From Candidatus Saccharimonadota bacterium (GTDB taxonomy: Bacteria; Patescibacteriota; Saccharimonadia; Saccharimonadales; UBA10212), in the NCBI GenBank assembly GCA_016176605.1, contig JACOWW010000002.1:250846-314845 (forward strand): DNA of 64,000 bases, given 5' to 3'. The first letter of the stretch is position 1. Every line of letters begins with the position of its first letter. The position numbers and the translations under genes are program-made. The notes beneath the pieces were generated by a model. The model was not told the DNA's origin. It worked only from the letters and a program-made list of their open reading frames with translations, and did not search any database. Below, in pieces: positions 15,826 through 17,026 of this stretch.

Positions 15826-15932
15826 ACGCCTCCTTCGGAGGCAATTTTCAATTTACAATTTTCAATTTTCAAAGTTTCTTCATTGATAATTGAATATTGG
15901 TCATTGATTGATAATTGAAAAAGGCATCTCAT
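15822..15932 (-). CDS. bridging small ORF rplC->rpl[37 protein letters not shown]
   Basis: ATGA junction with rplC stop; TGATG junction with rplD. Confidence 0.53.
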   Translation of the reverse strand: MRCLFQLSINDQYSIINEETLKIENCKLKIASEGGV

Positions 15933-16546: not shown

Positions 16547-16755
16547 TAACGGATAGCCCCTTATAGTTATTGATGGTTAATACTAGCTTCATATTTACGC
16601 TGAAATACGCCTCGGCGGTTTTGATTTCAGCTCGCAAACCAAACCAAAACCCAGCTCCGTATGCTGTATCCGTAACAGATTATCACAAAACGAATTCCCC
16701 AGTCAAGGTGTAGACGATTCTACAATAAAGGGGATTTGCAAAATAAGTTGTGTCA

Positions 16756-16916
16756 ACCCGGAAGTAGACTTTCGAGTCAGCTCGCCACCTTCATGAGCGA
16801 TTTATTCGACATTATTGCTCATATAACTATCTACGATTTTACAGATTGCGCTAGACATTCTGACGAGCTGAAGGTTTCATGCTAAGTCGAATAATCTCGA
16901 AAGCTCACTTCCGGGT
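16756..16916 (-). ncRNA. candidate structured leader RNA upstream of rplC (strand inferred)
   Basis: 21-nt inverted repeat (18/21 paired) 16756-16776 / 16896-16916; inner 9-bp pair 16802-16810 / 16886-16894; further possible pairings. Confidence 0.5.
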
Positions 16917-17026
16917 CAATCCGCTGTAAATATTACAAACTATATTGTGAACTAGCCGTTTCTATATTATCATTTTTCACAGATTTTCACGCATCTGTAA
17001 AAAGTCTTTTCACATACCTTTTCATG

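Follow-up and report, generated by a model that had tools for sequence, protein, structure and literature searches.

The DNA stretch analyzed here (the window; 64,000 nucleotides) belongs to G000, a 728-kb genome in 7 contigs, and carries a long inverted repeat between the M29 gene and rplC. This locus raises the question of whether the repeat is involved in the expression of the ribosomal protein genes or is a mobile element that happens to reside there. The two arms of the repeat (positions 16756–16776 and 16896–16916) pair at 18 of 21 positions and enclose 119 nt. The earlier note, in which a 21-nt inverted repeat was described, was correct with regard to the positions and the enclosed length, but the pairing is imperfect, whereby all three mismatches form a single block, AGA in one arm vs GAG in the other. 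Folding of the element as RNA yields −62.5 kcal/mol compared to −41.2 kcal/mol for dinucleotide shuffles (z = −5.1), and folding as DNA yields z = −5.4; none of the shuffles equaled the element in either analysis, so that the fold is non-random by this comparison. All the inner complementarities listed in that note are present in the sequence, and two of these, TTATTCGAC/GTCGAATAA and CAGCTCG/CGAGCTG, are arranged in crossing (pseudoknot) order; the other two, ATGAGC/GCTCAT and ACCTTC/GAAGGT, are confined to the window copy in the alignment of copies.

The element itself (positions 16757–16915, no strand assigned) is 159 bp long and non-coding, with imperfect 20-bp terminal repeats of the form CCCGGAAGT-AGA/GAG-CTTTCGAG and TCAA on either side. 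The AGA end, CCCGGAAGTAGACTTTCGAG, occupies positions 16757–16776 on the plus strand, and the GAG end, CCCGGAAGTGAGCTTTCGAG as read on the minus strand, occupies positions 16896–16915. The flanking TCAA tetranucleotides (16753–16756 and 16916–16919, no strand) are identified as a target-site duplication from the empty sites in both same-genus genomes, G001 and G002, where a single copy is present, and from the family-wide statistics given below. In G002, the empty site upstream of rplC reads ACAGCGGATTGACAC, compared to ACAGCGGATTGA-element-TTGACAC in the window.

The interpretation favored in the earlier note was an S10-operon autoregulatory leader or an sRNA. The strong fold, the crossing helices that are kept among the copies and the location of the element next to rplC are all in line with such a role. 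However, a conserved rplC promoter (positions 16677–16706, minus strand), with the −35 box TTGACT at 16706–16701 and the −10 box TAATCT at 16682–16677, is located on the rplC side, downstream of the element, and follows the pattern TTGAC, ~18 nt, TAATCT that is observed in 14 family genomes. The element is thus located upstream of the promoter and so, by position, outside the rplC leader. Furthermore, the element is missing before rplC in 13 other genomes for which the rplC upstream sequence is available, whereas the same sequence is found at unrelated loci. A scan of the window against Rfam at the gathering score detected one tRNA only, with no family matching the element and no intron family. 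Given these observations, a leader or sRNA function is hardly credible. The earlier note had named in advance, as a result that would contradict a leader, the presence of the element at unrelated loci together with target duplications; this is precisely what was found, and its alternative reading, a small MITE with ~21-bp terminal repeats, turned out to be the right one.

The genuine rplC leader is probably the region between the promoter and the start codon (positions 16547–16672, minus strand), which is separate from the element. In 11 family genomes outside the genus (L099–L109), this region contains a conserved motif, CTTGG ... AAGTCTGCC ... AACAGAGGTAGAAACTG ... CCAAG, with a T-rich sequence often coming next. 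The motif comprises two helices, with double changes in four pairs and a covariation term of about zero, and has diverged in the genus of the window; neither the region 16547–16672 nor the motif of the relatives has an Rfam match at the gathering score. For the window, the outcome is that a false ribosomal leader is removed and a probable real one is indicated.

Two additional observations pertain to the intergenic regions around rplC. At the equivalent place before rplC, G005 carries a different miniature element that belongs to another family (L214, G005:C1:204851–204919, ends CCCAGCACCTAG). Both this element and that in the window precede a ~45-bp segment of similar sequence, which G001 and G002 lack; either the two insertions occurred independently at a favored site, or they have an older history in common. 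In the intergenic DNA at ~15830–15930 and in the flanks of L194–L203, runs of short degenerate direct repeats are accompanied by a run of inverted partners, for example, TTTACCATT... and ...GGTGAACGGT, or CAATTTTCAATTT...ATTGATAATTGAA between rplC and rplD.

The ends of the window element recur at six further places in its own genome (seven copies in total) and in 13 of the 16 family genomes, and elements with an interior 72–75% similar to that of the window copy are present both in the same genome and in relatives. All copies start with CC-N-(A/G)-G-N-AGT, and each combines an AGA-type with a GAG-type end; the copies are not tied to a particular gene context. Exact 4-bp duplications were identified for 26 of the 45 distinct elements, compared to a mean of 2.0 and a maximum of 8 when the right flanks were permuted (2000 trials). 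The duplicated sequences roughly fit YNNR (TCAA, CTTA, CTTG, TATA, CAAG and others), and a second empty site was detected in G002 for the copy on contig C4 of G000. The copies fall into length classes of 71–92, 117–131, 154–174 and 309–314 bp, where saccharibacterial copies are combined with copies found in G061, in G064 and at single survey loci, possibly along with one or two members of the sister family described below. The exact end pattern is almost restricted to the family (13 of the 149 genomes of the order match, nine of these 13 within the family), and the exact sequence CCCGGTAGTAGACTTTCG was not found in viral contigs. Bacterial MITEs, such as the Correia elements, are short and non-coding, with terminal inverted repeats, target duplications, many intergenic copies and empty sites; the family of the window element shares with these its size, non-coding nature, terminal repeats, duplications, dispersal and empty sites in relatives. 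The segment 16757–16915 is, therefore, almost certainly a non-autonomous mobile element that has moved in the past.

What enzyme could have moved such elements? The coding elements with these ends that were detected in the family are all of the same length, 312 bp, and each consists of a single gene for a GIY-YIG protein of ~80 residues (PF01541, E = 4 × 10−15 in Pfam), in which the expected active-site residues Y14, G16, R24, H28 and E48 are invariant in 16 relatives. One such element, with TATG on either side, is located at G011:C48:10908–11219, in a genome where the same ends also bound several non-coding elements; a worn copy is found at G001:C2:109096–109407. In the genome of the window, no GIY-YIG gene was detected between ends of exactly the type of the window copy; the copies in this genome might, therefore, be fossils. 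A tblastn comparison of the interior of the 159-bp class with GIY-YIG proteins and genes gave no match. A search of PDB sequences returned a sole match, to a designed repeat protein, which was taken as chance. Adjacent to a 70-bp element on contig C6 of G000, locus L195 contains a palindrome of a third kind, CCCAGCCCTAAAATTT...AAATTTTAGGGCTGGG, with ends resembling the ends CCCAGCCCTAGTTTTGGGCT of the GIY-YIG element that is present in this genome (G000:C7:351–661).

The main competing explanation is that these are ordinary MITEs that depend, in trans, on a classical DDE transposase generating 4-bp duplications (e.g. an IS5-like one), with the GIY-YIG gene being a passenger in some copies. Terminal repeats combined with 4-bp duplications are typical of DDE enzymes, 4-bp YTAR-like duplications are known in the IS5 group, and the family genomes are, in part, incomplete drafts. 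However, in the 16 family genomes, end pairs of this pattern enclose solely non-coding DNA or a GIY-YIG gene, and the single larger candidate, a 1.6-kb transposon at G001:C2:109096–110739, was resolved into a 312-bp GIY-YIG element and unrelated genes. An autonomous relative with these ends and a DDE transposase was not found in these 16 genomes, which are drafts, most of them in pieces, and the assignment of the group therefore stops at MITE-like in form, with an unusual partner.

The association with GIY-YIG genes extends beyond the AGA/GAG group. A sister family with the ends CCCAGCACYTAG includes non-coding elements of 47–132 bp along with GIY-YIG elements of 296 and 301 bp; exact duplications were observed in 21 of 38 cases, and no reversed-control matches were obtained in 16 genomes. 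One member of this family is the second miniature element in the window (positions 2670–2716, no strand; 47 bp, CCCAGCACTTAG...CTAAGTGCTGGG, target-site duplication TAAA). Six near-identical copies of the latter in the same genome also have the flanks GATAACGG and CGGATAAC in common, which would fit nesting within another repeat.

In a wider survey, we analyzed 108 GIY-YIG loci, 29 from the family and 79 from other genomes, mostly of candidate phyla, that were collected with a consensus protein as the query (the 16-protein alignment is too diverse). Inverted repeats with a score of at least 13 in a de novo scan flank 51 of the 108 loci compared to 6 of the 393 shifted controls, where the value of 51 is approximate and probably includes some other hairpins (e.g. 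L145–L148). About half of the loci have no detectable inverted repeats, and most of the repeat-flanked loci show no visible duplication; nevertheless, 4-bp duplications were identified in 16 of the 51 repeat-flanked loci vs 2.7 (maximum 7) after permutation. The repeat type tracks the nuclease tree, with 6 changes among the five types (minimum 4, shuffled mean 20.1), although, because a repeat type and its nuclease are inherited together within one 300-bp element, this agreement alone is no proof of recognition. The tree includes the proteins of L121 and L140, worn copies with an in-frame stop. The AGA class forms one clade (support 93/93) with members from several candidate phyla. The presence of several distinct repeat types, each with a GIY-YIG gene and each tracking its phylogeny, also argues against a DDE transposase as the mobilizing enzyme, and we consider that explanation to be unlikely.

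The pairing of coding and non-coding elements is independently repeated in G061, an unrelated patescibacterial genome (the source of L116). It contains one 309-bp GIY-YIG element and several non-coding elements of 122–131 bp with the same ends; the latter show the AGA/GAA asymmetry of the coding element, and three of these have exact 4- or 5-bp duplications. Two survey loci are of separate note. In L163, a GIY-YIG gene lies between ATCCCTCACCC repeats with TGAA duplications on a contig whose title is Nanoarchaeota archaeon; the range of such elements might thus extend to archaea, unless this contig is misbinned. In L087, the GIY-YIG gene is flanked by GCACCATCCTTCGACAGGCT repeats that contain a palindrome of the CCTTCGACAGGCTCAGG type, which we take to be widespread in bacterial genomes.

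Thus, the explanation that we regard as probable is that the window copy is a non-autonomous member of a hairpin-forming group with GIY-YIG coding relatives, whose movement is driven by the nuclease. The group consists of saccharibacterial elements of ~70–175 bp, with the ~312-bp GIY-YIG elements as the only coding relatives. With modest confidence, we favor the GIY-YIG nuclease as the mobilizer of these elements, its role as well as the cutting and joining steps being inferred. Under this scheme, the nuclease would recognize the end sequence together with the imperfect stem, perhaps in the form of an extruded hairpin or cruciform, and would act both on its own element and, in trans, on the short non-coding ones. 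Cleavage would occur at the stem base and, with a 4-nt stagger, at a target resembling YNNR, and host repair and ligation would finish the insertion, yielding the duplication. At the locus in question, the element was inserted at TTGA (TCAA on the plus strand) just upstream of the rplC promoter, doubling these 4 bp. Among the GIY-YIG enzymes are nucleases that cut branched DNA, such as SLX1, so that cleavage of an extruded hairpin at its base is plausible; given that GIY-YIG enzymes are hydrolases, the joining step would need host help. That the asymmetric block is so deeply conserved suggests discrimination between the two ends or between the strands of an extruded hairpin.

Comparison of the copies is also informative with regard to the interior. 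The 82–92-bp elements mostly fold into the terminal stem and two hairpins, the stem sequences of which diverge strongly while the pairing is kept. The long class, which includes the window copy, has two extra helices in crossing order that are conserved across genera. Across 36 pairs in 12 long copies that represent several genera, pairing is kept in 95.8% of the cells, with 12 double changes compared to 3.7 in shuffles; double changes are found in one crossing helix (columns 25–34 with 111–120), and the other (columns 51–59 with 136–144) varies to G-U only. The crossing order is real at the sequence level, the helices themselves being predicted. The pseudoknot-like arrangement noticed earlier is thus conserved, but it belongs to the mobile element rather than to rplC.

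The conservation of the crossing inner helices across genera could indicate that the long class has been retained because it serves the host, for instance, as a structured RNA or an insulator, and that its mobility has become secondary. A long copy also adjoins the same gene in G000 (C7:349949) and G001 (C4:29907), and so this copy has persisted. However, both same-genus genomes lack the copy at rplC, the gene context is not fixed, and a recent common origin of the copies could account for the conserved interior, so that we consider a host role to be very improbable.

Several known systems resemble these elements in part. In contrast to MITEs, the coding relatives encode a GIY-YIG nuclease only and no DDE transposase, and nearly the entire element forms a hairpin, the two ends of which differ by a conserved 3-nt block. 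REP/BIME sequences with RAYT (Y1) transposases and IS200/IS605 elements share dispersed palindromes, a conserved stem imperfection and a single small nuclease-type partner gene, but these systems employ a Y1 tyrosine enzyme and produce no target duplication, in contrast to the GIY-YIG enzyme and 4-bp duplications observed here. GIY-YIG homing endonuclease genes are likewise mobile DNA carrying a GIY-YIG gene; homing, however, involves one allelic site and no duplication, whereas the elements described here occupy many sites and have terminal repeats and 4-bp duplications. Accordingly, a homing element residing at one conserved site in an intron or intein was rejected, given the many unrelated sites and the lack of an intron family match in the window. 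In Penelope-like retroelements, a GIY-YIG endonuclease serves mobility, but those elements require a reverse transcriptase, and none is encoded here.

To our knowledge, the established roles of GIY-YIG enzymes are in homing, repair and restriction, and the movement of terminal-repeat transposons is not among these; a literature search excluding bioRxiv and most subscription journals found no published description of terminal-repeat GIY-YIG elements in prokaryotes or of MITEs of this kind in Saccharibacteria or Patescibacteria. The broader proposition, for which we see the case as evenly balanced, is that these elements represent a new minimal class of DNA transposons in candidate-phyla bacteria. 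Members of such a class would be ~300 bp long, would rely for mobility on a single enzyme, an ~80-residue GIY-YIG nuclease, would have terminal repeats matched to the nuclease lineage and 4-bp duplications, and would mobilize non-coding hairpin elements of ~50–175 bp in trans.

In rRNA genes of CPR bacteria, GIY-YIG genes have been reported in non-intron insertions at poorly conserved sites, along with many short ORF-less insertions of unknown type; of the 66 saccharibacterial rRNA insertions, 64 are short, without an intron or homing gene (PMC11270868). The short saccharibacterial insertions could be elements of the same kind. If the proposed mechanism is correct, the enzyme would differ from the known DDE, Y1/HUH, tyrosine and serine transposases, and, with a single 80-residue nuclease domain moving DNA, these would be among the smallest autonomous mobile elements. 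Such elements could then account for the many small GIY-YIG genes and short palindromes in the reduced genomes of CPR bacteria and, perhaps, also for the origin of the short rRNA insertions.
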